A stretch of 64,000 nucleotides of DNA, taken from contig NC_045149.1 in NCBI RefSeq assembly GCF_008831285.2, forward strand, positions 22,636,535 to 22,700,534, read 5' to 3'. This stretch comes from Nymphaea colorata (lineage: Eukaryota; Streptophyta; Magnoliopsida; Nymphaeales; Nymphaeaceae). The translations under genes and the position numbers were made by a program. Shown here piece by piece: positions 1 through 32,568 of this stretch (positions are counted from its first letter, which is position 1; every line of letters begins with the position of its first letter). The notes below the pieces were generated by a model. It did no database searches, was not told where the DNA came from, and saw only the letters and a program-made list of their open reading frames with translations.

Positions 1-1860
1 GTTGTTATTCCCAGGTCGGTGGATGATGCTAAGGATGATCCCAAGTGGTTACATGCTATGACGGAGGAGATGGGTGCGTTAGCTAAGAACAAAACATGGG
101 AAGTTGTTGATATCCCTAAAGGGACACACTTAGTTGGCTCTAAGTGGGTTTACAACGTGAAGTACAAACCTGATGGCACTGTAGATCGATATAAAGCTCG
201 TCTGGTTGCAAAGGGGTTCAGCCAGAAGTATGGGATCGACTATCTTGAGACCTTTGCCTCTGTTGCAAAGTTGAAGATCGTGAGGGTTATTCTTGCTCTT
301 GTTGTGCACAGGAAGTGGCGCATGGACCAGCTTGATGTTAAAAATGCGTTCTTGAACGGCCATCTGGAGGAAGAAGTCTATATGAGCATGCCTCCCGGGT
401 ATGTTCAAGAGGGAAAATGTTGTCACCTCAAGAAAGCTTTGTATGGCCTGAAGCAATCGCCTAGAGCTTGGTTTGAGAGACTAAGGATCGTTATGAAGTC
501 TACTAGGTACAAGCAAGGAAATGGAGATCATACCCTATTCATAAAGCAGAGAGATGGTCTGGTGAGTCTTCTCCTTGTCTACGTTGATGATATGATTGTC
601 ACTGGCAGTGATGAAGAAGAAAACAGAAAGATGAAGGAGAGATTAGCTAAAGAATTCGACCTCAAGGATCTGGGTAAGCTGAGATACTTTCTGGGGATAG
701 AGATTGCTCGATCAGAGACAGGGCTGGTTATGAATCAAAGGAAGTACACTCTTGACTTACTAAAGGAGACAGGTAAACTTGGTTGTAGGCCCTATCTTAC
801 TCCTATGGAGTCGGGGACTAAGATAAGTATCAAGACGGGCACTATTCTGGATGAGGAAGGAAAAGGGCGATATCAGAGGCTAGTCGGTAAGCTTATCTAT
901 CTTACTCTAACTCGCCCTGATATCACGTATGCGGTAAATGTGCTAAGTCAATTTATGCATGCTCCCACGGATTGTCACTGGAAGAGTGCAGAAAGAGTGT
1001 TGGGATATCTAAAGAATGACCCAGGAAAAGGACTGCTGTATACTCGACAAGACAAACTTACTATTGAGGGCTACTCAGATGCAGATTGGGCAGGTTGCAC
1101 TAACACAAGGAGGTCCACTACAGGGTATTGTATCTTTCTTGGAGGTAACCTAGTTGTTTGGAGAAGTAAGAGGCAAGAAGTATGTTCGAGGTCTAGTGCT
1201 GAGGCTGAGTACAGGGCTGTTGCAATGGGGGTTACAGAGATGCTGTGGCTGAAGATTCTTTTGACTGATATTGGTGTGGAACTAGGAGATAAAATGAAGA
1301 TGTACTGTGACAACAAGTCTGCGATTAATCTTGCCAATAATCCAGTTCTACACGACAGGACCAAACATGTGGAGATTGACCGTCATTTTATCCGGGAACG
1401 CATTGACTCAAAGGAGCTGATTCTGCCATATATGAAGTCTGAAGATCAAGTTGCAGACGTCCTAACTAAAGGGCTTTGTACTTCTTCATTCGAAAAGAAT
1501 GTTAGCAAGCTTGGCATGTTTGACATGTATGCCAAGCTTGAGGGGGAGTGTTAGAATATGTTGTTGTGGGAACCGGGTCCATATCTGGACCCGGTTCTAT
1601 GGGGCGCGGGTACCGAGGTGGGCTCGGTACCCTAGGCAGCTTCTCCTCTCTCCCTCTTTATATTGTCACTTATGTATAAGTGTTGAATTAAGTGAAATAG
1701 TATTTTTTCTCTCTCCTAGGGTTGCGGGTGTGCACCTAGGTAGAGCTTCCCGTGGTTTTTTTCCTCGTCCGAGGTTTTTCCACGTACATCGTGTGTTCTT
1801 CCTCTACGTGGTTTGTGTTTCTACACTATGTAATGAAGAGATTAGGGCCAACCTACCACA
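1..1860 (+). mobile_element. Ty1/copia retrotransposon, 3' part (RT-RNase H plus 3' LTR)
   Basis: An open frame from 19 to 1554 encodes the end of a copia pol polyprotein. In order it shows the RT start (WVYNVKYKPDGTVDRYKARL), the [10 protein letters not shown] block, the catalytic YVDDM box near residue 192, and the RNase H part with [25 protein letters not shown] and HIDRHFI-like [13 protein letters not shown]. It ends in LEGEC. There is no stop or frameshift, so the copy is recent or conserved. A purine tract at 1538-1548 lies directly before the LTR. The TAG stop falls inside the LTR, as in the second copia copy at 17232-30106, whose RT is closely similar. The gag, protease, integrase and 5' LTR must lie left of the window edge. 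The element may sit in a further intron of the helicase gene, because that gene is still incomplete at 2399. Confidence 0.95.
1549..1860 (+). repeat. 3' LTR of the left copia element
   Basis: It starts with TGTTAGAATATG directly after the polypurine tract CTTGAGGGGGAG. The right end is placed at a CA (CTACCACA) at 1860. It contains a pyrimidine-rich middle and a TATATT motif near 1659. The end is approximate because the 5' LTR is outside the window and the target-site duplication cannot be checked. Confidence 0.65.
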
Positions 1861-2398
1861 TTGAAAGAATGTGACTGTTTCCAGTCCACTAAAATTCCCA
1901 AGGGTTTACTAGATTTTCCTCACAACAGCAAACCTTCTGACTAATAACCGAAAAAAACCTTACCAGCAAGAACCTAATATGATATTTGTGACAATGTACA
2001 AGACATCAGAAAGTAATTAGGCTCCAGTATATGGAGGCACATATTTTCTCTCTTTGTTTAGTTTAAACCTCAGATAAACATGTCAAATGCATTTAATACA
2101 GTCACAAAGAAGGGAACAAGAGTCTCAATCACCTAAATGTGCAACATCAACACTTTACATACAGAAGTGGAAATCCAACACTGATCAATACTCAATCAGC
2201 AAACAATAACAAGCAAGGTTATTGACCCACTGAAAATTGGTTAATAGAGACAAAATTTGTGAAGGCTGAAAATTTGGAAACACTTTAAAGCCGCCTGTGT
2301 CATTAGAACCAAATGTCTGCAAAGGAATTTTTCTAAGAACCGGAACATTAGCCCAGCCAAAAGAAAGGTCAGTTGCTTCTACCAAAAAATTAGCTTAC

Positions 2399-5300
2399 AT
2401 TCCTCAGGTCACTGTCTTCATTCAACAACTTCCCACCATCAGCATCAATGACAGCTCGTTGATCAAGAAGATATTTCTGCCAAAGAAAAAAGGTCCTATA
2501 TTTTGGTGAAAGTAGTAATATTGAAAGAAAGAATAAGGCCAACATGGTAGTAAAGACATGACAAAGAAAGCATGAGAGTATAAAGCAAACTCTGACAATC
2601 AACATATACTCTAGGTCACATGGGTATGGGTGGAGGTTCGGGTACAGGTGCAGACCAAGTTCAAAAACTACGGGTACAGGGGTACAGCTGTACATATATA
2701 TTTATATGTTTATATGTGTGGTAATAAGATCTTAGCTAAATAAACATATAAATAAATTCATTTCTTTTATTACTGAACAGAAAACACTAAAGTATACACA
2801 AAAGGTAAAAAAATACTAAAGTATACCCAAAAAGTAAAAAAATAATAATAATAATAATAATAAGGCTGTTGCGTCCAGGCAAGCACCCGTGCCGGCACGG
2901 GTACTTGGCCTTTTTAGTTGTACCCGTGTTTCATAGCATATACTCAAATAACACATCAAAAATGTGAATAAATATTTGTCCCAATAATGCAAGTTGCTAC
3001 AAGATAGAATATTAATTTTAAAATGAGGAAGAAAAAATGAAATACAATATCCCACTCAAAGTCAGATCTTGAAGAGTATCCACTTCAACATGACTATCCA
3101 GCTAAGTTGTTCCTTGTGCTTTTCATGATAAAATGGAAGCAAAAACATCAAGGATATGCATGTCTGTGCATATATATGTCTATGTGCATACATATATTGT
3201 TAAAATAGCAGTTGTATTCTACACGCTAAGGGTATTTTTTTTAGACAACCAGAGAAAGAAGAATAATACTGACAGAAAAACGATGGCAGATTAGATAACC
3301 TAGGAGAATAAACCAAAAATCATAACTTGCGTGAGTGAAAGATCTCCAAGGTCACACCTTGGGAAGTAAATATTTCTGATCTATTGCACTGTACCACTTT
3401 AGATCTGAATGTCCAAAGTTGTTGAACATGAAGAAGAAGAAAGACAAGCGAGAGGGGATTCCTTGAACAGCAAGACAGCAGCCTCCTCAAATCTAGGTGT
3501 GCTCTAGGTATTCTTATCATTAAATATATTTTAAGACTTAAGAATATATAATAAAATAAAATAACTGGACTGCCACTCCATGCCCAGGCAAGGTTATAGA
3601 AACAATACCTGGATCTGATCCAGATCCAAAATGAATACCAAAACAATATGAAAAGCACATCTTTTCAAAAAGAACAAGCAACAAAGGATTTATTAAACAA
3701 AAAACCAGCAATATTTTATGAAGTCATACCAAGACCAGTAGAGTAATATTTAAATGACAAAAGTTCCTCATTCTAGAGAATATGCCTGATAGAGAAACAA
3801 CTCAAGCAAATGCATGAAACATCACTATGATCAGAAAAGTAGTAATCAATGGAGAACAGGCAGAGATTGTTCAGATCCGCAACAAGCAAAGAAATTGAAC
3901 CTGAGGTATTAAGTTTGCAATAGAACTAATAACCATTGAAAGTGATTGTTCCTGTGCCAAAACAAAAGCCAATTTAAATGTTACAATCGATTGCATTTGA
4001 AATTTCATGCAAATTAGCTTCGAAATTGCAGAACATGTAATAATGAGAAACTTTGGTTTACATCAGAAAATATCACACTAGCCAAAAAGAATGTTTCAAT
4101 TTCATAAGCAACTACAATTCCCAGCATACAAACCAATATCATAGATCAATAAAAATTAACATTGTATAAACAGCAAACTATATTTTATATCGCTGAAAGT
4201 TTCATCTGAGACAATCAGACTAGTGGACTGATCACGCACAATCTCATCTAGATATACGAAGAAAACCCCAAGGGAACTTTTGTTATAAAGAAAGCAAAGC
4301 ATCAGATCAATAGTTCATTTAGTTGCAATTATCATGGCAAGAAGCTGAGTTTAAGTAGTCTGAGCCATAGTCACAAATATAGCTCAGTCCCAACTTTCTA
4401 TAAGTGAGGTTTTTCTTAGGTATTTTTACCCAAATTATTTTTCTCCATAAAACACCAGAAAAATCTTGAGAAATCAAAAACAAAAATGAAAAGTATATTT
4501 AAAAAGTAATGGAAAAAAATATGAAATTCAGAGTTTATACTTTATACTACTTTGCCTTACAAGTACAATGATGAAGGTTCAAAATAATTTTAAAAATTTT
4601 TAAATAAAAAAGGGAAACATAGACTAAAAATTATATAAAAATAAGAAAATATCATGATATAGTCGTAAGAAATATTTTTTGGTGACATTGCAAACTATTG
4701 AGAGATTTTCCCTTCAAAAATGGCACTGCTGTTTTGTTGATAGAAACAGTATGTGGTCTGCACCACAGACATTTCAAATCATCATTAACTAATTCTTTGT
4801 GTGAACTCTTGATGTTTCTTCAGTTAATTTATTGTGTGAAACCAAAAGTAGACAATCCTCTTTCTGTCCAGAACAAAAAATGTATTCTTGGCTCAGCAGA
4901 CAGAACACACAAGATGCCTGCCTCCTTTCACTGTTGTTTTGGCTGGATCTGCTCTGGGGCCATCATTAGATCAAGGTAACATTTCAAGAGAAGCGTGGAA
5001 GATGTTATACCCTTTGAACAAGTTTGGATATCATATCCAGGGTAAGTAATACTTTACGCCCATGACTAAGTTGAATCCTGCAGGCATAAGATATTTGAAT
5101 AAGCAAATATAAAACCATCAGCAAGCCATTCAAGTACCAATAGTGATGAAACTACAAAGCAACAACAAGGTCATACAGCAAAGCCCTTGCAATACCATAA
5201 GAGCATGCTAGAGGCCCAAAGCATGGCTATTCATGACTTGAACACAGAAAACAACATATTTACAAAAAGAAAGTTCATGAGCCAAAAGAAATTAAGCAAA

Positions 5301-14800: not shown

Positions 14801-17800
14801 GATCTACATAATAACTCATAAGTAAGTCATAAGATCCATAACACATCAAAAACCAAGTTTTACGTACAGTATACATCACATCACAAGACAAAATTGTTCA
14901 ATGTTAATGCAAATAACAAATGAAAATAGCTTTGTTCATAATCTTTATCATCTCATTCTCATTTTCATCTTTCGTAGAAGATATAAGCCCTCTTTATCCA
15001 AGAATCAATCATCCATGCATAAATCTACCCTCAAATTGACGATTTCATGGTGAAACAGATTATTCCTTTTGAAAATTGCCACAATCTCCTCCTTCTTCAA
15101 GTATTAGATATGTTCAGAAATGAAGAGGGAGGGAAGTTTTAAAAATTAGTTTGAAAAAGGGTGGTTTTAACCACATATTTTTCAAAATAGACATGTATCG
15201 TGCAATACGGAGTGTATCGCCCTGTATCGTACGACAGGCTGTGTATTGCATGATACATGCGATACACATACAATACACCACCTGTTTGCGATACAGGTGG
15301 TGTATTGTATCGTAAATTTAAAATGAGACGGTACGTATCATATGATACATACAATACTAGTTTCAATGTGAAATAACTTCTTTAAGAAACTAACTTAAAA
15401 TAGTTCTATGTGAATACCTTGTTCAAGAAATTGATTCTGAGGACAACGATGGCTTTTATTAGAACACATAGGCACAAAACAATTCATTTTCCACCATAAG
15501 GGAAAAAATCAGCATATCACCATGTCTCGCGTTCCCACATACCGTATGCTGATTCACAGTTGCCACTTATAAAATTTATTCATCATACTATACTACATAA
15601 ATATCAAACAAAGGCACTTTCCTTAACCATCAGCTTTCATGAACTCAAACGCACGCCATCTATAATTTGATCTTCCTAAGAATCAAGATTAAAACAAATA
15701 GACAATCATCAAATCCCTCCATCCTAGTTACTAAAGAAAAAGACCTGATTAAAGTTTTAAATTGTACACTTGCATCATCATGATACTACTGTTGTTTACT
15801 CTGCTCACAGCATTTAAGCACAAGAAAGCTAGATTAAAACTCCAAGTCTAAGCAAATGCACGGTACAGTTTGTGTGCCTTATTTACATTTTTTGATACAG
15901 AGAGTTAACATTTTTACTGTTAATTGGTGAATGCTAAAAACAAACCTGCATGAAAAGAAGAGGGAAATGCCTATACTAAGCAATTGCCCAAGTGGGCGGC
16001 AACCTAAGCACCTAAGCTTAGAGGCACCTAGGTGGCCCCAAAAGGTGCAATTTTTTCCAATTTTAACTATAAAAATTTTCATGTTTGCCTTGTTCTGTCG
16101 TCTAATCACCAATGCATTAATTGAAATGAAGTTTCAAAAACCCCATTTTGCCCTTTCTTCCTCTTTTTTCTTCTTCTTCCACTCACTCTTTTATTCCTCT
16201 ACCTCTTGTCAAATAGGAATGCCTAAGGCCCAATGAAGCCGTTTTTTTTAGGGGTCTACAAACTAGGTCTGCCTAGTGCTTTTAACCATATATACGATTA
16301 GAAAGAATCATGAGCTTTGACAAAATAGATGTGTGATAAGATGCTCATTAAACATTCACATGTCGAAAATTGATAAATCCATTCCTTTATGCCTTACACA
16401 GTCATGGCATGTACTTTCATAGAAACATCGGATGTACTCACCATTGCTACAAATTTCTGCCACTTCTTGGAATTGTCCTTAAAGGAGACCACAGAAAAAT
16501 CCTTTTCAGTAGAATTCTCCTGAACATTTTGATCCATATTTTTCTTTTTAATCTTTTTACCCATCTCCATCAAGCGCACAGCCTCGATTACGGCTCGCCT
16601 TTGCTGCCCAGTTCCATAAATTGAGAAATCAGGTGTACGTTGAAACCTAATAGTACCAAGAATGTTAGATGGAACATGTGACCACAAGCCGAAAGTAGAA
16701 AACCAACAACCATTTTAGAAAACAGGTATATGTTTGAGACATCCAAATACATCCATACAAAACAAAAAGAAGCCCCTGGGCAGAACTGATGGCATGACCT
16801 TATTACATGACGAAGTAAATATGCAAATTCTAGGGAAAACATCCGACTATGAAGTTAAAGCTTTACTAGATAATGCAAGCTCTAAAAATTAACAATTAGA
16901 CATCCACAACAATGTAGGCTTGATGACAAATAGGGCCAGATTCACCAGGACTGGAAAATGGACTGGTCTAGCCTGACTTTGGATTAGGGTAAGCCCAGCT
17001 TGTCAAATGGCGAGGCCTGACCTGCTGTTATGCAAAACCAGTCCATACACATTCAACTGAAATTTGGACGATGAGCACCCACGTCATGTTGCATTATGTA
17101 GGTGTACAGGACGTTCCTGCAGGGATCATACAACAGATTCTGACATATATGTGCTTGCAGTTATGCACATGGCATGTGTAAATCAATAAGCAATAATTTG
17201 CAATATTATGTTAAATATGTTGTGTGCATACTGTAGAAACAGTAAAAGTGAGAGAACGAGAAACGAACACAGATGTAACGTGGAAAACCCCTCAACTAGA
17301 GGGAAAAAACCACGGGTGAGAAGGACTGGTGCCCACTAGCAACCAGACACTCTCTCTCATAAACTTTCATTCATACCCAAAAATTAGGGTTACAAAGATA
17401 CAAGTAGAGCCTCAACTGGCCTAAACAGAAGCACACACTGGATTGGGTCCCGGCCCAGACCCGTACATTAAAACATGTCAACAATCCCCCTCAAGTTGAG
17501 CATACAGATCAAACATGCCCAACTTGGATACATTTCTCTCAAATGAAGTTGAAGACAAGGCTTTGGTCAGGACATCAGCAGTTTGGTCTTTAGATCTCAT
17601 ATAAGGAAGTACAAGTTCTTTAGCATCAATTCTCTCTCGAATGAAATGCCGGTCAATCTCAACATGCTTTGTTCTGTCTTGAAGCACAGGGTTGTTGGCC
17701 AAGTTGATTGTTGACTTGTTATCACAATACATCTTCATTGGTTCTTCAACTTTTATACCAATATCAGTCAACAATACTTTCAGCCACAAAAGCTCAGAAA

Positions 17801-20800
17801 CTCCCATAGCAACAGCTCTGTATTCTGCTTCAGCACTGGAACGAGAACAAACGTCTTGCCTCTTACTCCTCCACACTATGAGATTCCCTCCTAAATAAAT
17901 ACAATAGCCAGAGGTGGACCTCCTAGTGTCAATACAGCTTGCCCAGTCTGCATCTGAATAACCTTCAATCCCAAGAGTGTCTTGCTTAACATACAGGAGA
18001 CCTTTGCCAAGATTCCACTTCAAGTAGCATAAGATCCTATCGACAGCCTTCAAGTGAGCATCCGTGCGAGCATGCATGAACTGACTCATCACATTCACAG
18101 CGAAGGTAATATCAGGTCTAGTGAGAGTAAGATAAATCAATTTCCCCACAAGACGTTGATATCTTCTCTTGGCCTCTTCATAGAGAGGCTCCCCATCTCT
18201 AAGACTCAGCTTATGGCCAGCATCTAGAGGACTAGAAGCCGGTCTACACCCAAATTTTCCGGTCTCCTTTAACAAATCTAGAGTGTACTTCCGTTGATTT
18301 AGCACAAGGCTAGTACCAGACCTAGCAATTTCAATCCCAAGGAAATATTTCAACTTACCAAGGTCCTTGAGATCAAACTCGATCGCCAATAGTTTCTTTA
18401 ACTTACTTATTTCATCTTCATCATCACATGTGACAATCATATCATCAACATATACCAACAGAATAGTAACTTTTTGCTCATTCCTCTTCACAAAGAGTGT
18501 ATGATCTTCATTCCCTTGATGATATCCATATTGTCTCATTACAAGTCTAAGTCGTTCAAACCATGCTCGAGGAGTTTGTTTGAGCCCATATAGAGCTTTC
18601 CTTAGCTTGCAACATTTTTTAGGTTCCTCATATCCTGGAGGCATACACATATATATTTCCTCTTCAAGGTCTCCATTGAGAAATGCGTTCTTGACATCAA
18701 ATTGGTACATCTTCCACTCCTTTATCACAGCTAAGGATATAATGACTCTGACAGTCTTCATCTTTGCAACGGGAGGAAAGGTCTCCAAGTAGTCGATTCC
18801 ATATTTCTGATTGAACCCCTTGGCAACAAGTCGAGCTTTATATCTATCTATATTCCCATCTAGCTTATACTTAACGGCATAAACCCACTTAGATCCTACC
18901 ATATGAGCGGCTTCAGGAAACTTTACCACATCCCATGTCTTGTTTCTGTTCAAGTCTTCCATCTCTTCCTGCATTGCATAAGTCCACTTGGGATCCCTCT
19001 GAGCCTCAACAACATTCCTAGGAATCACAGCCAAAGAAAGAGAAGATACAAAACATTTGTAGTCATTGCTCAGTCTAGAATGAAACAAAGTTACCAATAG
19101 GATGTTGAGTACATGACCTAACACCCTTTCGCAGGGCGATGGGAAGCTCTTCACTTGCAGCAACAGTCTGAATGTCTTCTTCAACTTGTTTTTCCCAAGC
19201 ATGACTTGGATCATCCAGGGAATGACTAACTCGATTGGAAGTAGAATTCTCACCACCTGTCACCTCATCTGTACAGACTCTTCGCCCAGAGTAAACTTGC
19301 CCAAAACTGTGACAATGTTCCTCCTCAGTCCCAGTAGAACCCCTTTCATCACTACGTTCCTCCTCAGTCCCAGCAGAACCCCTTTCATCACTACGTTCCT
19401 CCTCAGTCCCAGTAGAACCCCTTTCATCAACTGCTTGACTCTCCTCCCGCCTATAGTCCAAGAAATCTGTGAACTGAATATCTTAACTCAGAGAATACTC
19501 TTCCCTTGACATAGACTTCTCTCCTTGAAGAGAATTCTCACCAAATAGGAAGCATGTTCAAGGAAAGTGACATCTTTCGTAACATAGGCACGACCAGTGG
19601 AAGGGTCTCGACACTTGTACCCTTTTTGAGTGGGAGAATAACCTAGAAATATGCCCTTAATAGACCTGGGATCAAGCTTTTTAATATGAGGACTATGATT
19701 GTGAATAAAGCAGACACAACCAAAAACTCTAGGTGGAAGAGAGAAAGGTTCATGACTCCCCAGTAACATAGAATGAGGTGTCTGCCCATTCAAAACCCGA
19801 CTAAGCAGACGGTTGATAAGATACGCACTGGTCAACACAACATCCCCCTAATACTTTTTTGGAACATGACGTTGAAAAAGAAGAGCCCGAGTCATATTCA
19901 ATAACTGGCGATTCTTTCCCCGAGTCATATTCAATAACTGGCGATTCTTTCTTTCAGCAACTCCATTTTGAGGAGGAGTATAACTACATGAAGTCTCATG
20001 AACAATTCCCTTTTTTCGATAGAAATTATCAACAGACTAACACGTATTGAGTTTCCACATAAGTAATCAAAGTTTATATGACAGTAGGAACTTCACTACG
20101 GTCTTTTAGCAAGTAAACAATGGTGTTCCGAGAACAATCATCTATAAAGGTGATAAAATACCGAAAACCATGACAAGAAGGAATTTCCGAAGGCCCCCAC
20201 ACATCAGAATGAATCATAGCAAACACCTCATTAGAACGATGGGTAGACACAGGGTATGAAGCCCTAACATCTAAGTCACAAGGAAACGCCTATTTGGCCC
20301 ACGTATCTATGTCAATACGGGGATATGGGGATACGGGTGCGGATACGGCATGGATACGTTTTGGATCGGGTCTGGATTAGTGTAACGCTCGGCATTTGTA
20401 GGACGGGTCGGGTCAGGGTCCAGACCCAAACTCCACATGCGACAGGAGCCCGACACCGCCCTCTCCTCCCTCGTTTTTCCTTCTCCCTCGTTTCCCCTCT
20501 TCGTCTCTCCCTTAGCCACGACCGCAACTCAGAGAAGAAGAAGAAGGCAACGGCGACGACGACGCTTGGGGTGAGCCCTGTCGTCCCCTTGCCTCTTTGT
20601 CTCTTCTCTCCTCTTCTTCCTTCCTCTCCTCCTCCCTCTTGCGCAGCCCTTCCCCCCCCCCCCCCCCCTTCCGTTTTTTTTTTTGTTGTTGTCGTTTCTC
20701 TCCCCTCTCACTCGCGCCTCTCTCTGTCAGCACCCTCACTCTCCCACCTGCTCTCTCTCTCTCTTCTCTCATGCACTCTCACCCTCACTGGCCTTCTTCC

Positions 20801-23800
20801 CCATTTCTGTCTGAACACCCTCTCTCTGTCTCCCCTTTCTGTCAGCGCCCCTTTCTCTCATTCTTTTCAGCTGCCCACACCACTACCGTGGGCCTCTCCT
20901 AATGACAGATTCCTTTTTGGAACTCCCTTTGGTCGATTTTTGACTCTTTTATGGCCTTTTAAGTCGACTTGCAGCTTGGAGGCGCATATTTCCCCTCATA
21001 CCAGTGGCTGGGATGCATTGGTGGAGGCGGCAATGAGAGGTTTTGGCTGTTTGAAGATCACTTGAACTCGTGAGGTGGCTGCCGGAAGGATTGCAGCAGT
21101 CTAGACTCTTGATTTGGTGTGAGCAAGGCGTAATTGAGCCTATTTTATTGTATATTTTCATTTGGAACACGTATAATTATTGTTTGAGCATGCTAGAAGG
21201 TAGAATTGATGATTTGGGATGCATGTTAGCGACTTTGCTTTTTGGGGAGAGTGTAGGATTATGTTGGAGAAGCGTTGATTCATGTCTATAATGATCATTT
21301 AAGTATGATGGGTTAATTTTCGAAGCAATAGGGAAGCATGGTAGAGATTTGATGTGGGTCAGAAGATTTAGAATCGTTTTGATGAGCATGTGGCACAAGC
21401 TTTTGTCAACGGGCGTATTGCGGTGTTAGTTGGAGAAGAACATGTAAATTGGGTGTATTTGTGGGGAAGACGCTTTAACTATAGAAAGCATTTAAGAATG
21501 TGTTAAGGATGGATTGATCGAAGTATTGGATTTTGATGTTTGGTGGCAACGGCAGGAAGTTGGGAAGTGGCCCATTAGAGGGCTTGTAGGTCGACACTAC
21601 CCGTCGACACCTTCTTGAGGCGATGACATGTGCCTCAATAATTTTGTTTTATATTTGTTTGGATCGATAAACTAATTAGTAGAAATCTTATCTTTTGTTT
21701 TTGTCTGCAGGTACACCGGGCACGTCCCGTCGACCTTGAGCTACCAGATTCGAAGCTCGAGGCATTTTGAAGAGTTTTGTGAGCGCGCCATAGGTATGGC
21801 GGCATTCCAGGCAAATCCTTGCCTGGGCAATTGTGTGAATGTGTGTTCCTAAAATCGTGGGATCCTAGGATTGTGATGTGATTGATGGATTGTTTTGTGG
21901 ATGAATGTGTGTATGCATGCAAATTGTTTGATATATGATATGATTTGTTTTGAAAGGCTATGAGAAGCATGTTTTGAAAATGTTACGCATTTGCATGTGC
22001 ATGCTAGAATTGATAACTGTTTAGGACAGATGAGGTGGGGTATCGAGTCGAGTACCTCCTCGACCCCAATTATGCATTAGAAAGCATCCTAGAATGATAA
22101 TTGTCTAGGACAGATACGAGCCAATCACGGATCGAGACTACTCTTTGTGGTTTGGCTAAGTTTTGAAAGGTGTGACTGATGTGTCTGATTGTGAATGATT
22201 TGTCATGTGACAAGTTCTGTTTTGGAAAGCTATTAGAATCTTGTTTTGAAAACTGTTACGCATTTGCATGTGCATGCTAGGCCTGGGCATCGGGTACCGG
22301 GCCTGTCCACCCAAAATCAGGGCCGGGCCGGGCCGGGTACCGGGCCTGTCCACCCAAAATCAGGCCCGGCCCGCTTCCCCTCCCGTCTCCTGACTCCCTC
22401 CCGGGTAACGTGAGGGGAAGTGTTTCCGGCGAGCCCCCTTCTTCGAGTGCTACGCCGATTAAAGATCAAAAGCAGCAGAAGAGGAAGGATCGACCATGCT
22501 AATCGCGACGGTGTTTAGCATTTTGCATTTGAGGTTGGATTGTAGATCGTGTTTCTATCGTCTCATCAAAATCTTTGGGTTGGAGAACGGAGAAGGTACT
22601 CCGTCTGATCGATTCTAGGGTTTTTCTGCAATTAGATTGAAAGAATCGTGATTTTGGGATTCTTTGGGTGTAAAGATAAAAGGTATTTGTGTTCTTGTTC
22701 GGAATCGTTCCGAAGGTATCATCAAGAAGATGGCCGGCCAGGGTCAGAGGCTCAACATCGTTCCGACGGTGACGATGCTCGAGGTCATGAAGGCCCGCCT
22801 AATCGGTGCCATAGGCCCACGAGGGGCCACGCCATACTCAAAAAGAGGAGCGACACGCCGACGCCCTGACCGTTCAGTTCCGACAGATCCTGAAGAAGAT
22901 GGGCGACATCATGAAGACATCCGCTTTCGCCCTCACAGAGGCCAAGTATGTCGCTGGTAATAATATCAAGCACGTCGTCCTCGAGAACGTTCGATCCGCG
23001 ACGTTGAAGGTAGGGAAAGGGGGAGCGGAGAGGAGAAAGAGGGAGAGGGGGAGCGGAGAGGAGGAGGAAGACTGGAAGAGGGAGTGGCCGAGAGGGGGAA
23101 AGGAAGGAGGGGGAGAGGAGGAGGGAGACAGGAGACGGGAAGGGAGAGAGGGAGAGGAGGAGGGAGAGGGAGACGAGGACAAGAGGAGGGGCCGAGGGGG
23201 AGCGCCGAGCGAGAGGGCGAGGCGGAGCCCGAAGTCGGGCCGGGCCGGGCCGCCACTGGGCCCGCCTATCCGGCCAGGGCCCGGGCCAGCCCGGCGGCGG
23301 CCCGACCCGACGCCCAGCCCTAGTGCATGCTAGAATTGATAACTGCTTAGGACAGATGAGGTGGGGTATCGAGTCGAGTGTCTCCTCGACCCCGATTGTG
23401 CACTAGAGGTGTAACGCTCTTTATTTTTTTTTGGGCAGGTCGGGTCAGGACCCAGATCCGGACCCGCAGCTTACCCGCGGGAGAGCCCGACGAGGACTGT
23501 TCTCCCTCGTCCTCATCTCGCTCTCCCCCTTTTCGTTGTCGTTCTTGCCGCTAGGGAGATCCACGCAGAGAAGAAGAAGACGAAGACGGGGGAGGTGCCG
23601 GCGACGACGGGGGAGGTGCCGGCGACAACGGCAGCTGAGGCGGTGGCGCTTGGGTAAAACTCTCTCCCTCTCTCGTTCTTTGTTTCCCTTCTCCGCCACT
23701 CTCATGTTCCTTTGCCCTCCCTACCGAATGCTTTCTCTCTCTTCCTCTCCCTTGCCCCTCTCTTTCCCCCTTTCCGATAGCCCTCTCCTGCACGGTCCCT

Positions 23801-26800
23801 CTCCTTACTCTCCCACCGACTCTCTCTTCTCTCTCGTCCTCTCCCCTCACTGCCCTTCTTCCCTTTTTCTGTCTGAACCTCTCTCTCTTTGTCTTCCCTT
23901 GCCTCACGTACCCTAAGTGAGCTCGTTCTCCCCTTTTTTTTTTCTAATTGTTTTTCCCCTTATCCCAATCGAGCACTCCCTCACGGTTTTCAGCTTTGTT
24001 TGTTAGGATTCTAGCTTGGGAAACGTGTTTTTCCCCTCCTAGCAGCGAGTAGGCAGTGTTGGTGGTGGAGGTTTAGCACGATTTTTGTCGTTCGGGGACC
24101 GATTGATCGCTTGAGGTGACTGTTGGAGGCGTTGCAGCAGTTCAGATTCTTGATTTAGGGTGAGCGAGACCTAATCAAGCCCAAATTATTGAATATTATC
24201 TTTTAGAGCATGTATAATTATTGTTTGTGCATGCTAGGGCTTAGAATTGATGTTTTGGGATGCATGTTAGCGATTTTGCTTTTGGGGAGAATGTGGGGTT
24301 ATGATGGAGACGCGATGATTCATGTGTTTGTTGATCTTTTAAGCATGATGAGTTGATTTTCGAAGTAATAGGGAAGCATGGTAGCGTTTGTATGGCTGTG
24401 GGGAAGATTTAGGACGGTTTTGGTGAGCGTGTAGCACACGTTCTGGTGAACGAGTGCGTCTTGGAGTTAAACAGGGAAAGCGTACGTAAGTTGGATGTGC
24501 CTTTGGGGTTGAATCCTTGATTAAGAAAAAGAAAGTTTGGAGAAAGGCGTTTGTGATAGATGGATTGATGGCTTTGAGTTTTGACTTTTGTTGGCACGGC
24601 TAGAAGTTGGGAAGTGGCCTAGTAGAGGGCTTGAAGGTCGACACTACCCGTCGACACCCTCTTGAGGCGACGACACGTGCCTCAAGGATTTTATTTTGTA
24701 TTTGTTCATTTTTGTTTGAATTGTGTAGGTATTTAGTAGAAACCTTATTCTTGTTTATGTTTGCAGGTACGCCGGGCACATCCCGTCGACCTTGAGTTCG
24801 AAGCTTGCGGCATTTTGAAGAATTTGGTGAGCGCGCCACAGGTATGGCGACATTCCAGGCAAATCCCTGCCTGGGGCAAATGTGTGATTGTGTGCTCATA
24901 GGATCAAGGGATCCTAGGATTGTGATGTTAATTGATTGACTGCTTTCTGAATGAGTATATGTATGTTGCTTATATGATTGAATGGGTTAGAAAGATTATT
25001 AGTCTTTTGTTTTGAAAATGTTACGCATTGGCATGTGCATGCTAGAATTGATATCTGTTTAGGACAGATGAGGCGGGGTATCGAGTCGAGTGTCTCCTCG
25101 ACCCCAATTGTGCATTAGAAAGCATCATAGAATGATAACTGCATAGGACAGCTACGAGCCAACCGCAGATCGAGACTACTCTCTGTAGATTGGCTAAGTT
25201 TTTCAAAGAGGTGATTGACGTGATTGATGTGATGATTGATGTGATTATTGATATGAATGTGTATGTTGTTGCAGATGCATTGCCATGGGCAACGATGCAA
25301 ATTGATGAATTAGAGGGTAGTTGTACCCGTACTGTATGACGGCCAGCAATGACTGTTACTATATGTATAGACCTCGTGTGGAGGCATTGAGAGGTGTAAG
25401 TGCACTCGTAGGGTGTATTAACCTCATGTGCTAGCCAGTCATCTTGTGAATGAGTAATGATAATGATAAAAAAAAAACGAAAGGATAAGAGATGAGAGGC
25501 CAGTGGGATGTGGCTGTGTGTTTGGGAGACGTCTCGTTCTCGCCACTGGTCTCACCTATCAGAGCGCAGGCGGTGCAAGGCCCCAGGGTTCTGTTGTGTG
25601 TTGTGCTTGGAGCGTTGGGCTCCCGCCTTCCCAACCTGGGTGTCCTAGGAAAGGCTGAGTATCTCACTTTGGACTTCACACATCCAGGGATGAGTGCTCT
25701 ACCGCTGCAGCGGGTGAAATGGATCCATACTGTTATGGGCCACCACGGGGGTTGTCTCTCGGCTGTAGGCCACCCGCGGTGTGCACGTGCCTGTGTTGCA
25801 CCCACAGGAACTGTTAATGCACTAAAGTTAATGAAAATGTAATGTGTTTGATAGAATGCATGTGACTGACGTATATGTGATTGATATGAATGCAAGTGTT
25901 ATGTTTAAGCATGCTTCGCATGTGACTGATGTTGTGTTAGTGTGGCCATCAAGTGGCTTTTACATGTCGTACTCTGACACGACATGACGATAGATGGGTT
26001 GATATTTGTTCTTTTATTTGAGCCTTACTTGAGAGGGTTTGGCATTTTCCTGGCTTGTTGCCAAACTGCGAAGGCTGAGCCTTCAGTTGTTTTCTTTTTC
26101 AGGTTTTGGCGGACCCGGGGCAACAGGTTGAGCAGATGGCTTCACTCACGTCCTACTGGGGAGATTTTGGGATTGTCGTTTGTAGTGCCGGCGCGTCATG
26201 TTTTGGTTTTATTGATGTCTTCTTTTTGTTAGGCATCAATGTTATGATTTTGGGGCATTTTGGTCATGCACATAGATGTGAATTTGTATGAAACAAAATG
26301 GTTATATAAATGAAAGTTCGCCCCATTCTTTTGAATTGTTTGGCTCATCGTCTTTTTGAATTGTTGGGTAGTCACACCTCGATGCTTTATGTTTAGAAAA
26401 AAAAAAAAGTTTGTGGGTTAAAAGGTCGTGGTGTTACAAGAGGGCATCATAGAATGATAATTGCATAGGACAGCTACGAGCCATCACGGATCGAGACTAC
26501 TCTCCGGGATTTGGCCAAGTTTTGAAAGATCTGATTGATGTGTTTGATAAGATGTGAATGTTGTGATTTGTTGCATATGTATTGCGGTGGACAATAATGC
26601 AATTGATTGAAATTGGAGGGTAGTTGTACCCGTATTGTATGACGGCTAGCTATGACTGTTAACGTTATGTGTAGACCTCGTGTGGAGGCAATTGGAGGTG
26701 TGGGTGCACTCGTGAAGTATGTACCAATCTCATGAGCTAGCCAGTCATTTTGTGAATGTGCAATTATAATGATAATAATGAAAGAATAAGAGATGAGAGG

Positions 26801-29800
26801 CCAGTGAGATGTGGCTATGTGTTAGGGAGACGTCCCGCTTTCGCCACTGGTCTTGCCTGTTCGGAGCGCAGGCGGTGCAAGGCCCCAGAGTACTGCTGTG
26901 TGTTGTGCTTGGAGCGTTGGGCTCCCGCCTTCCCAACCTGGGTGTCCTAGGGAAGGCTGAGTACCTCTCTATGGAATTCACACACCCATAGATGAGTGCT
27001 CTACCGCTGCAGCGGATGAATGGATCCATACCGTTATGGGCCACCACGGGGGTTGTCTCTCGGCTATGAGCCGCCCATGGTGTGCACGTGTCTGTGTTTG
27101 CACCCACAGGAACTATCAATTTACTAAAGCTAATGAAAATGAATGTATGTGAATGAAATGTGTGTGGACAAATGTATGTGATTGATGGGCATGTAAATGC
27201 TATGACTGAAATAAAATGTTTAATCATGTCTTGCATGTGATTGAGATTGTGTAAATGTGGCCCTTGAGTGGCCTTTTCATGTCGTGGTCTATGATAGGGG
27301 TTTTCTTGGCAAATGATGTGCCTATGCCCTGACACGACATGACGATAGATTGTTTTTATGATTGTTCTCAGATTTGAGCCCTACCTAAGAGGGTTTGGGA
27401 TTTTCCTGGCTTGTTGTCATACTGCGAAGGCTAAGCCTTCAGTTGTTTCTTTTTCAGGTTTTGGCGGACCGGAGCAGCAGGTTGATCAGATGGCTTCACT
27501 CACATCCCACTGGGGAGGTTTTGGGTCTTTGGTAGTGCCAGCGCGTCATGGTTTGGTCTTTTTTATCTTATTTTTGTCAGGCATCAAAGTTGTGGTTTGG
27601 GACATTTTTGTCATACACATAGATGTGATTTTGTATAAATTGAAATTGTTATATAAATAAAAGTTTGCCCCATGGTTTCAAATGACATAGCTCCCTTTTT
27701 TTTTGAATTGTTGTGTAGTCGCACCTCAATGCTTTATGTTTAGAAAAAAAAAATTGTTTGAGGGTCAAAGGTTGAGGTGTGACAATTAGACCCGATCTGA
27801 ACAAAAAAAAAACAGATTTTAAGTTAAGTTGAGCTCTTCTCCCTTTCTCTTTGGGGTTTTTTTTTTCTGTTTTTCTGATAAATGACTAGAATGATGATAT
27901 TGATAGACAATGTTTTGTGATAAACAATGTTTTGTTTGTGACTTTAATAGTGAACTATTAATTTAATGTTTTTTTTATTTATAGTTTTTTATAATATTAT
28001 ATTTGCCGTATCCGCGTATCCGAGAATTGTGAAAATTGCCGTGTCTGTACCCGTATCATCGTATCAGCACCCGTGTGACTTAGCCTAACATGTTTGGCCA
28101 GGTGACGGACATCACAAGACACCATAGTCATATCTAACCTGGAACACAGATCAGGAAATAACTGTCTCAGAATTCCAAAGGGAAGGTGTCCAAGGCGCTC
28201 ATGCCGACACAGAATCGATTGAAGGGAGTCCTCTCTACTCTTCGATGTTTTGCTGGCAGGTGTCATGAGGGCAGTAGCGGCACGCATAGGTAAACGATAT
28301 AGCCCTTCAGAAAACATACCAATCTCAATCCTCTTCCATGTCACCAAGTCCTGCAGAACACAGCGATCAGCAGAAAAAATAAGTTCACAATTCAACTCTT
28401 TTGTAATCTTGCTAACCGACAAGAGGTTCAAGGGAAGATGAGGAACATGTAGAGCATTGTAGACTAAGAACTTGTTCAAAAGTGAGAGACTCTCTTTTCG
28501 AGCCACAGAGATAGAGGAACCATCGGCAAGAGACACACGTTCCTTTCCTGACAAAAGCTTATACCCATGAAAGACCTTAGGATCGCCAGTCATGTGGTGA
28601 GTAGCACCACTATCAATAATCCACTCGCCCATACGAGAATCTACCATCACGAAATATCACTAAAATAGCAATAAAGGCTGGAAGCGTGAAACAAATGGTG
28701 GCCAACTGCTAGAAGGAAGAAGACAGCTCCACACACAACAAAAAACGACCAACACGAGCGACGGCAGCAGCGGCAATCGCAGCACGGAGGCGATGAAGGC
28801 AACACTAGACCACCATCGAAACTTCACGGTGGCAGCGAACAGTCCTAGACTACCAACGGTAATAGGGAACAGCAGAAACACCACCAAAACTCACGGCAGT
28901 AGAGGATGAGCAGCAACCGATGTGCAAAAATGCAGAAACACGGGAGGGAGACCCGTCAGACGCAGAGCGGACGACAAAGGGCGAAGCAGACAGTATCACC
29001 GGCGGCGCTGCACAGATAGAACAAGCAGCTCTGGAGGAAACCGGCGACGCTGGTGGCGTAGAATGAAAGAGGCTGCAGACGCTGGGGACAACAGCCAGAC
29101 GACGCAGCTGAAGATCCAAGGCGTGAGAGCACTGGGACCGTCGGGAGAAGTCCTCAGGCGCAACTCAGCTTCAGGCTTGTCGGAGAGGGCTTCACTTGAA
29201 AATTCGTATAAAATCGTAGACACCTCCAAAAATTCTGAAATTTGGACCACAGCAACAGCACGAGCCAAGGAGTGGACGCTCCAAATTTGGGCTGAATCCG
29301 AGCAGTCTACGCTCAGGTCGTTGAGCCTTGAAGTCGCAGGTTGTCTGTCGCCTGCTTCAAGAAGACGCCACCGATTTCCGCCAGATTCCGTCCGTCGCCT
29401 CCAGAAACGCCATCTGTGGTCCAATCGACGTCAAACTTGGTGGAGAGGATCACCTGGATGTTAGGAATCGAATGGCACCGGAATCATCAAAATCCAACGG
29501 TCCAATCGCAGGAAAAGTCACCGAAAACAGGGTTGGGAAGCGATCAAAATCAAAACCCCCAAAAGTTACAGCCGATTGAGCCCTCGATTGAAGCTCAGAC
29601 AGAAACAAGCTTAGTGTTAAAACTGGGTATACAGAATATGGCACGATCGTCTCAAACGGCCCTCAAATCGGTTCTCCTTCGATCAAATCCGCTGGTAGGT
29701 CATCCACAAGCCGATGGTGAAGGAGCTCGCACAGCAAACCGGCAAGAGTCGACGGTGTCCACCGGAACTTCACGGCGGCAGACGATCACCACTCAAACGG

Positions 29801-32568
29801 TGATCCAATACGAGCACAAACAAGAAACTCAGAACCAACCTGGCTCTGATACCATGTAGAAACAGTAAAAGCGAGAGAACGAGAAACGGACACAGATGTA
29901 ACGTGGAAAACCCCTCAACTAGAGGGAAAAAACCACGGGTGAGGAGGACCGGTGCCCACTAGCAACCAGACACTCTCTCTCATAAACTTTCATTCATACC
30001 CAAAAATTAGGGTTACAAAGATACAAGTAGAGCCTCAATAGGCCTAAACAGGAGCACACACTGGACCGGGTCCAGACCCAGACCCGTACATTAAAACACG
30101 TCAACACATACAATAGGAATAATACACATAAGTTTCAGCAAAATACAATTAGAGCCACTATATTTGGAAAATGTAGCAACAGGAACATATTTACATAAAC
30201 TAATATGACTCAAATAAGGGAATATCATCATAGTTATATTTAAAAATCAAATGTGGAACTATCAGGCCATTTATCAACATGCATAGGTTCATGTAGTGTG
30301 GTCAAAGATGAGATTTACAGTTAGAAAATTTTTTAAAATAAAAAAAGGAAAATAAGAGGAACGTACTTCTCAGCATGTGCACGGCAAAGCTGCAAACAAA
30401 GTGAATGGAATGTGCAGATTGTGAGTTCTTTAGCAATAGACTTTCCTGCAAAGGTTCCTATTCTCTCCCTCATTTCTGACGCAGCAGCTGTTGTAAAAGT
30501 CATTGCCAGTATGTTGGATGGAGCAATTCCCTGTAAACGAAGATACCAAGAAAAAGGAAAAATAGAAAAATAGACAAGAATTGTGAAAATCTCAGCGATT
30601 TGTCAAACATAAGGATGAACTGTTACTTGCCTCCTTCAAGAGCATCAATACACGGCCAACAATTGTTGATGTCTGAAATGCCAAACAAAGAGATCTAAGA
30701 ACTACAGAAACATAAGACAACAGATAATTACAAGTAACAAGTGAAGTCTGAGGCAACAATCTAGGTGTTCAGAGATTCACTTATACAAGGGAAGCTTAAT
30801 GACAAAGTCAAACCTTTCCACTCCCTGGCCCTGCAACAATCATCAAAGGGACTGTAATATTACTAGTGGCAGCCTCCCTTTGCATGTCATTTAGCGTTTG
30901 AAAATATCTAGAAAACGAGTCATCTGTGGATTGATTTTGATTAGCCATGAAACATGGCTCTTCCAAAGAGCTATCAGAAGAAACACATTTGGAGGACACA
31001 GTCCATTCGCAGGCAGAGGCCACAATCTGTGCACCAGTAGTTTGTCTAACATCATCTGCAGTAAGCTCGTGTGCCAAAATCTCAGGCTCCTCTTTTACCA
31101 AGTCAGGTAGAGTCTCGATACCTTTTTCAGGTACATCCTGAGCAGAGGCACGTACATGGGTATCTTGAAGAAGCAACCAAGTTTTGGTACTCATATCACT
31201 CGTATCAGTGGAACCATGATTAATAACACTTTGTGGCCTAAAGGGGCTAGCATAAGGATCCATGGATTGCTCAACGCAACCATTTTGTATGGCTGCTCTG
31301 AATTCAGGTCCTTCCAAATATTTCTGTCCAAGAATTGTATCAATTTCTTGCAAAAATAAATCATCAAAATCTTCCATTGGTGAATTCAAAGGAGTCAAAT
31401 TATTTCCAGAATCTTGTGAAGAGTCTTTTGAAGAAACACATGAATATGGAGAATCAATAGTTGGAACTGTCCTTGGAACTTCCTCAGATTTTTTTGTTTC
31501 CTTGAGGTTATCATGAATTGAGGATTTATTGCAGGGGATTAACCATGTTCCAGGCTGGGACACTCCAAAGTTGGTATGTGATGACAATCTTGGATTTCCT
31601 AATTTTGGCTTGCATGTATTTGCCTCCATTTCTTGGAAAGGAACTCTATTGACTTCAAATAGCTTGTGTGGCACACTGCTCTTGCATCTTCTACAAAAAG
31701 AAACTTGCTTCAGCTGTGAAAAGCAACTAAAAATTGCAAATCAAACAGAAAATATGCATAATTTCAGCACATCAATGGAGTGGATTGGAATTTGGAAACA
31801 TAACATATCCAAACACATTCAGAACTGGCTATATATGGAGCAAAGAGGCACACAATTTTCAAAGAACATTCAATTCCAACATCTGAAATGATTTGTGTGG
31901 CACTGCATTTCATAAGATATGGCTAAATGTAGGTAAGACCATGGCCTAATTCAATGAGTTTAATAAATAATTTTGTTGAAGTCAAAATTTGGATTAGTTA
32001 ATGAATTTTTAATGTGCAGTTAATGTCAAAACATGTGATCCTTATTTCCCCTCTTCCTTCTTCTAGTCATTACCTTAGAATCATATTGAGAAATTATGGT
32101 TTGTTTGGCCACGACCTATCAGTCTTCGCTTGTGATAGCCTCCAAGGCTATCGACCAACTGGTGCATGAATGAAGATGAAGGGAACGAGAGGGAGAGAAA
32201 TCAAGAGAGAGAACAAAACATCATAATAATTTCCATTAGGGCTAATCATACCTAAAAAGGATTACAGCATAAAGCAAAGTGGGTCCTTACTAAGGTCCCG
32301 ATCCAAACTGACTGAACATAACTGGTTCCTAATAAACCCAAACATAACGTAAAACAAACATAACATAAAACAATGATAACAAAACCTAAACTAAAACAGA
32401 ACCTAACAGCTTAGCACCTCAGATCAAAGTCACTGAAGCTATCATGTGTAGAAAGAGCTCACAAGCTCCTTCACTCAAATTGGCTTGTGCCGAGCTCTCC
32501 TCCATGGTGATGGATTGACACAGTGAGTTTTAAAACACTGCATCCCGCAAATGGCAACATTGAATTGT

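Follow-up and report, generated by a model that had tools for sequence, protein, structure and literature searches.

An intron of a predicted UvrD/Rep-type DNA helicase gene of Nymphaea colorata has very probably grown stepwise, by nested transposition, from 840 bp to 13,720 bp. The growth is spread over five insertions: a Copia retrotransposon, a MITE within it, a putative solo LTR (A) within the MITE, and two insertions side by side within A, namely a second putative solo LTR (B) and a hAT-like element that carries a gene fragment. All five insertions are flanked by exact target duplications. The intron lies in a window of 64,000 bp (the whole stretch of DNA that was analysed), to which all plain coordinates below refer. 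A first-pass annotation of this window had described growth by nested insertion, five levels deep and in an order fixed by the nesting. Four of the five insertions are now supported by relatives in the same genome that show the empty site. The five insertions stand, but they make four levels, as the earlier count had included the intron itself. Each outer sequence does precede what it contains, but nesting does not decide whether B or the hAT-like element came first, and alone it does not fix that each event occurred in the intron.

The helicase gene and its intron

The intron and the two exons that it separates are placed as follows.

30367..30530, minus strand: upstream helicase exon (...CRAHAEK), in frame with the next exon; PF00580
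16647..30366, minus strand: enlarged intron, 13,720 bp, donor GTACGT, acceptor TATTAG/G
16442..16646, minus strand: downstream helicase exon, in which the split codon completes the frame; Pfam and PDB matches

The joined exon pair matches the UvrD-helicase family (PF00580; E-value 1e-20, with a Pfam E-value of 4e-15 also obtained), and the exons flanking the intron match Rep, PcrA, and UvrD in the PDB. By itself, the N-terminal helicase fragment had no informative hit in the PDB, and its Pfam UvrD match fell below the cut-off. On these matches the host gene is predicted to be a UvrD/Rep-type DNA helicase, which we take to be the one called SRS2-like in plants, with a UvrD N-terminal domain that spans the exons around the intron. 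The earlier claims about the locus hold at this level: the exons stay in frame and join into the helicase domain, and the growth from about 0.84 to 13.7 kb corresponds to 840 versus 13,720 bp, the smaller figure being computed from the sequence once the Copia element and one CATAC are removed. Judging from the intact host splice sites and the frame, the whole stack would be removed by splicing. The 164-bp upstream exon has a single place in its own genome (408 Mb, 783 contigs) at E <= 0.001.

Layers of the stack

The insertions, their target duplications, and their parts are listed from the outermost inward.

17227-17231 / 30107-30111: CATAC, Copia target duplication, exact
17232..30106, minus strand: Copia element (level 1), 5,054 bp without inserts; its coding strand is the helicase gene's strand
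17232..17483, minus strand: Copia 3' LTR (element sense), 252 bp, adjoined by a purine tract
29855..30106, minus strand: Copia 5' LTR (element sense), adjoined by the primer-binding-like site TGGTATCAGAGCC
20263-20270 / 28084-28091: CCTAACAT, MITE target duplication, 8 bp, exact
20271..28083, unstranded: MITE (level 2), 404 bp without inserts, ends CTAAGTCACA
20376-20380 / 27785-27789: ATTAG, LTR A target duplication, exact; empty site in MITE copies
20381..27784, plus strand: putative solo LTR A (level 3), 3,317 bp without inserts, homologous to B
~21908..22209, plus strand: copy 1 of a tandem duplication in A, uninterrupted; K2P 0.157 between copies
22180-22277 + 23331-23409 + 26444-26570, plus strand: copy 2, interrupted by the hAT-like element and by B
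22270-22277 / 23323-23330: GTGCATGC, hAT-like element target duplication, exact
22278..23322, plus strand: hAT-like element (level 4a), 1,045 bp, ends TAGGCCTGGGC/TAGGGCTGGGC, two other full copies
22407..23011, plus strand: captured segment of a V-ATPase subunit D gene (its 5' part with codons ~1-96), frameshifted and without 7 codons
23405-23409 / 26439-26443: AGAGG, LTR B target duplication, exact; empty AGAGG site in L059
23410..26438, plus strand: putative solo LTR B (level 4b), 3,029 bp, Ty3/gypsy family

The five target duplications reported earlier are all exact and sit at element ends, and all ten boundaries agree. In a blind scan of the window (which contains no N) for 8-bp duplications flanking inverted ends, with 40 Markov-1 resamplings as the null, four places were found versus 2.85 expected when at least 9 of 12 end bases had to match, and two versus 0.325 expected at a threshold of at least 10 of 12; these two are exactly the MITE and the hAT-like element. 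Such a scan alone is a modest, weak argument, and we therefore used uninterrupted relatives in the same genome to decide.

The LTRs of the Copia element share 95.2 per cent identity (K2P 0.0497, SE ~0.014), have TG..CA ends, and are bounded by the 5-bp duplication of their class. When its pieces were scanned apart, without the integrase core, the minus strand gave, in order, Pol_BBD, gag_pre-integrs (a weak match of 19.4 bits, below the cut-off of 28.4), SH3_retrovirus, and RVT_2. The placement of the integrase part before RVT_2 is that of Copia-type pol, and RVT_2 argues for the Copia class. Among the ten leader frames on the minus strand with 40 or more amino acids, no gag family was found, and their three weak matches are all to unrelated families; a gag hidden in the leader was rejected on this ground. 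Between the leader and protease pieces, the gap is 0, 1, or 30 bp in 7 of 39 other Copia copies (best 40 of 1221). We file the element as a non-autonomous, gag-less Copia of the kind represented by Tos17.

The MITE is short and multi-copy (493 candidate places in the genome, 40 scored), with inverted ends and an 8-bp target duplication, and the three fetched copies having both ends all carry 8-bp duplications of their own. Its ends and duplication length suggest a hAT-like element; other superfamilies with 8-bp duplications may fit as well.

A and B each consist of one LTR with a 5-bp duplication immediately on either side. Their relatives were sought among 1364 candidate places for A and 1518 for B, with 40 scored in each case. 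Among those scored for A, eight other genomic matches start at its first base and run for at least 948 bp, and two of the eight form an A-type same-strand pair on contig C6 (25678148 and 25686075, 7.9 kb apart). The places scored for B include six same-strand pairs 7.8-8.0 kb apart. Paired B-type LTRs on contig C15 (1514771 and 1522658) have the duplication AACGG outside, and a B-type gypsy body (L048) holds gag, RVP_2, RVT_1, RT_RNaseH_2, integrase H2C2, rve (below cut-off), and SH3_Tf2-1. Solo B-type copies with exact duplications also occur (L020, L023, and L024). Together, these observations support A and B as solo LTRs of a Ty3/gypsy family, with the body read for the B type only.

A further feature of A, missed in the first-pass annotation, is its tandem duplication, the ends of which are approximate, as the copy alignments overlap by 30 bp. 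Because two other genomic LTRs carry it, the duplication is older than the locus and was imported. Its formation in the intron was rejected, since its units differ by K 0.157 versus 0.050 for the Copia LTRs.

In the genome, the hAT-like element is present in at least three complete copies, which have inverted ends and the 8-bp duplications GTGCATGC, CGATACAA, and CCAGCGAG. Its captured segment matches the V-type proton ATPase subunit D in the PDB (E-value 4.3e-30); a Pfam search of seven reading frames from A, B, and this element gave a single weak match, ATP-synt_D, below the cut-off. The likely donor gene is L006 on another contig, C10, which has an intact 266-aa V-ATPase D frame (86.7 per cent over element positions 130-734). 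Repeated copies with inverted ends and 8-bp duplications, together with a captured segment whose parent gene is present, are the features of a Pack-hAT. The description of this layer as a gene-capturing element is correct as to the V-ATPase D fragment; the capture, in contrast, is older than the locus and was imported, because two sister elements (L004 and L005) share the same frameshifted fragment between other duplications. Capture within the intron was accordingly rejected. The element classes (Copia, gypsy LTRs, and V-ATPase D capture) are supported by RVT_2, paired LTRs, internal domains, and the PDB.

Empty sites, relative ages, and competing explanations

Four of the five insertion sites are empty in relatives. 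The MITE site is empty in 4/4 fetched Copia relatives, the sequence being uninterrupted across the insertion point, and the LTR A site is empty in 6/6 fetched MITE copies. The hAT-like and B insertion points are uninterrupted in 29/29 fetched LTR relatives and empty in both fetched A sisters that share A's tandem duplication. These comparisons cover the window's own genome, and the entry of the Copia element into the intron falls outside them because the exon has one genomic place.

Divergence values give a further view of the order. The Copia LTR pair has K 0.050 (~0.025 per lineage), A versus its two sisters has K 0.036-0.038 (~0.018-0.019 per lineage; duplication region only), and B versus the nearest of six measured relatives has K 0.040 (~0.020); the values of A and B versus their relatives give maximum ages for the inner insertions. 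These relative ages appear to agree with the nesting order; they overlap within error and would not alone establish it.

We propose the following history. A gag-less Copia retrotransposon would have entered the 840-bp helicase intron at CATAC, in the gene's own orientation, and a short hAT-like DNA transposon would then have entered its integrase region, between the gag_pre-integrase and SH3 domains. Next, the MITE would have received a gypsy element with ~3 kb LTRs, the body of which was probably lost later by LTR-LTR recombination to leave solo LTR A. A second gypsy element, presumably reduced to solo LTR B in the same manner, and the gene-carrying hAT-like element would both have entered the second unit of A's existing tandem duplication.

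Since nesting fixes the order of events and not their place, some inner layers could already have been within an outer element on arrival, which would mean fewer growth steps. Two features of the stack, A's tandem duplication and the V-ATPase D piece, were indeed imported, and a rare composite could be missed when 40 places each were scored of 1518, 1364, and 1221 candidates. Against this, the sites are empty in 29/29 LTR relatives, 2/2 A sisters, and 4/4 Copia relatives, and no examined relative holds the composite, which points to transposition in place for each layer and makes import of a composite highly improbable. We give even less credence, and practically none, to a mis-join of repeats during assembly: the inserted elements do belong to repeat families, but all five insertions have exact duplications, the window is free of N, and the junctions restore uninterrupted relatives, which mis-joining does not easily produce.

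A different concern is that the intron harms its gene, through early transcript ends or mis-splicing, and that the gene is a failing copy. Premature polyadenylation is possible because the gene strand of the intron has six AATAAA hexamers, each of them in the MITE, A, or B layer. The Copia element is also in gene sense. Yet the flanking exons have kept their frame and conserved helicase sequence although the Copia LTRs diverged by 5 per cent, and the genome search with the 164-bp exon revealed no second place for it; we consider a failing gene unlikely. The preferred reading remains that a spliceosomal intron has grown in steps as transposons nested within it.

It is very doubtful that members of this gypsy LTR family insert preferentially into one another. 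A second B-type LTR candidate does lie inside another A/B-family LTR (C12:12549694, L026), and B is ~80 bp from the hAT insertion in A, inserts not counted. If such self-insertion held across the genome, the family's own LTRs would act as safe sites for it, and host introns would be where such stacks accumulate.

Comparison with known systems

In maize, the fourth intron of the active gene ZmAcc7g20001011 exceeds 12 kb after a Copia and then a gypsy (jaws) insertion, compared to orthologous introns of 647 bp in sorghum and 264 bp in rice (PMC2773423). The helicase intron is likewise enlarged by nested LTR elements, Copia first. The maize case involves two nested elements and is proven by cDNA and orthologous introns, whereas the helicase intron, with five insertions at four levels that include a MITE and a hAT-like element with a captured gene fragment, is known from genome sequence alone (PMC2773423). 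It is also long and TE-filled like the heterochromatic, TE-bearing introns of transcribed rice genes that are controlled by OsIBM2; the helicase locus is known at the sequence level (PMC7145194). The gene-carrying layer resembles the Pack-hATs of the Pack-TYPE group in having inverted ends, an 8-bp target duplication, a captured piece of a host gene, and more than one copy, and differs from them in its host and in its captured gene, V-ATPase subunit D (PMC8903248). Tos17 of rice is a gag-less Copia with pol domains and two genomic copies, thought to move with another element's Gag since its own is absent (PMC3977881). The helicase-intron Copia similarly appears to have pol domains without gag but, unlike Tos17, belongs to another family, with 1221 candidate pol places (40 scored) and a leader of ~1.2 kb (PMC3977881).

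The process is well known, and the stack opens no new question; the helicase intron is a very clean example. It marks a limit to the reading of such stacks, in that layers give the order, but parts of layers (here, the captured gene and the tandem duplication) can predate the locus. As a base-exact record of intron growth through stacked insertions, four of the five backed by empty sites elsewhere in the genome, the stack could be used to test the annotation of nested elements.

Layers of the helicase intron

The minus-strand gene product is a UvrD/Rep-type helicase by Pfam and PDB matches (Rep, PcrA, and UvrD in PDB; Pfam UvrD-helicase, E = 1e-20 for the exon pair 30367-30530/16442-16646 and 4e-15 for another two exon pieces taken as a pair). 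The two exons are joined in frame, as the first-pass annotation had proposed, via a split codon and enclose an intron of 13,720 bp with a GTACGT donor and a TATTAG|G acceptor. Removal of copia and one CATAC leaves 840 bp, in agreement with the growth from about 0.84 to 13.7 kb claimed there. Copia lies in gene sense, and the long terminal repeats (LTRs) A and B are antisense to the helicase gene.

Insertions in the helicase intron, with target duplications and net lengths
17232-30106, copia, gene sense; CATAC; 5,054 bp
20271-28083, MITE; CCTAACAT; 404 bp
20381-27784, LTR A, antisense; ATTAG; 3,317 bp
22278-23322, hAT-like element; GTGCATGC; 1,045 bp
23410-26438, LTR B, antisense; AGAGG; 3,029 bp

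With coordinates recomputed, the five reported target duplications are exact in all ten copies, and the net lengths plus 31 duplicated bases equal the 12,880 bp gained by the intron. The nesting comprises five insertions in four levels; the "five levels" described previously included the intron itself.

Empty sites, order, and age

Relatives were sought in the window's own genome (408 Mb, 783 contigs; the window is C12:22636535-22700534). The ATTAG region is unbroken in all six fetched MITE copies (40 of 493 candidate places scored), one of which (L052) has ATCAG there, and the three copies fetched with both ends have their own 8-bp duplications. All four fetched relatives of the copia piece adjoining the MITE (40 of 1221 candidates scored) lack the MITE and cross its site uninterrupted, with CCTAACAT exact in two and one or two changes in the others; in one (L056), 8 bp are missing a few bases left of the site. 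The insertion points of the hAT-like element and B are both uninterrupted in 29/29 fetched LTR relatives (gaps in 4-17 columns of 173). Their pre-insertion sequence is present in two fetched A sisters that share A's tandem duplication: L059 has AGAGG exactly and the hAT site with one change, and L060 has GTGCATGC exactly and the B site with two. The comparison covers the four insertions inside copia.

The tandem duplication, omitted from the earlier description, consists of ~21908-22209 present twice in A, the second unit being split by the hAT-like element and B. Its units differ by a K2P divergence (K) of 0.157 (SE 0.023) versus 0.050 (SE 0.014) for the copia LTR pair, and two other LTRs (on contigs C14 and C7) carry it. 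The duplication is thus older than the arrival of copia in the intron, and A brought it along.

Nesting fixes outer layers before inner ones, as originally stated, but not the order of B and the hAT-like element. The LTR pair dates copia to ~0.025 substitutions per site in each lineage. Upper limits are ~0.022 for the MITE, from the closest of four valid comparisons; 0.018-0.019 for A, from 516-518 bp in two sisters; and ~0.020 for B, from the closest of six relatives measured. These ages agree with the nesting order with overlapping errors, which is consistency, not proof. Under a substitution rate of 1.3e-8 per site and year, a value for grasses that is uncalibrated here, copia would be ~1.9 million years old.

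Families of the inserted elements

The B search (40 of 1518 candidates scored) gave 64 matches, including six same-strand pairs 7.8-8.0 kb apart. One pair on C15 (L022/L021) has AACGG on both outer sides and K of 0.047 between its LTRs. Within its body (L048), a primer-binding-like site and a purine tract adjoin the LTRs, and separate frames match the domains gag, RVP_2, RVT_1, RT_RNaseH_2, integrase zinc-binding, and SH3_Tf2-1, which is the Ty3/gypsy order. Among the scored candidates, six other B copies span 1-3028 or 1-3029: three (L020, L023, and L024) are solo LTRs whose flanking duplications match exactly, one (L019) has a duplication with 4/5 bases matching, and two are the C15 pair. 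An A-type pair lies at C6:25678148 and 25686075. On this evidence, A and B resemble typical solo LTRs of the family. At L026 (C12:12549694-12552483), a B-type LTR lies within another A/B-family LTR at a different position.

The copia family seems to be gag-less, the leader here being 28651-29854. In 7 of 39 other scored copies (C7:10926559, C8:14211217, C14:11326042, C9:5216742, C9:4721399, C3:26445115, and C8:24137328), the leader adjoins the protease piece, separated from it by 0, 1, or 30 bp; the other 32 have no adjacent match among the 40 of 158 leader candidates scored. It lies directly upstream of the protease in three of four fetched copies, the fourth (L064) having a different sequence there. 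At leader position 882, several relatives have an extra 109 bp compared with the intron copy. A gag-less Copia is already known in Tos17 (PMC3977881), and, similarly, this copia would need the Gag of another element. Short tandem duplications in the pol region of copia look as if recent (19312-19429, 39 bp x 2.9, 97%; 19886-19951, 33 bp x 2, 100%). A second Copia pol occupies 1-1552 on the plus strand, with an RVT_2 match of E = 1.3e-70 in a frame of 517 aa that stays open up to the edge of the window; its DNA is 71% identical to 17480-19029.

Positions 130-734 of the 1,045-bp hAT-like element come from a gene for V-ATPase subunit D (PDB match, E = 4.3e-30), in keeping with the gene capture first proposed. 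An intact 266-aa frame at C10:19625307 (L006, 86.7%) is the likely donor by sequence match; L007-L009 match more weakly (~81%), with frameshifts in L008 and L009. L007 (C3:16543454) and L008 (C3:15881983) have identical match statistics in opposite orientation ~0.66 Mb apart on one contig; L009, a further copy, lies at C37:5180. Full elements L004 and L005 contain the same fragment and frameshifted stretch within different 8-bp duplications, so capture came before insertion into A and did not occur at this locus. The element search (40 of 357 candidates scored) gave 84 matches, mostly to the GA-rich tail, and at least three full copies exist. Pack-hAT elements were previously known (PMC8903248).

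Mechanism and precedents

Stepwise transposition into the helicase intron is the best supported mechanism. The gypsy bodies of A and B would have been lost through LTR recombination, and the whole stack would be spliced out from the host splice sites, both splicing and expression being predicted. Rice genes with long, transposon-bearing introns are described as requiring OsIBM2 (PMC7145194), and intron growth in grape has been linked to LTR elements (PMC3058033). The maize ZmAcc7g20001011 intron exceeds 12 kb and contains a Copia element along with a nested gypsy one, versus 647 bp in sorghum and 264 bp in rice (PMC2773423); the helicase intron has more layers than that source describes. Growth of plant introns through nested elements is already published, and the helicase intron is a clean further case.
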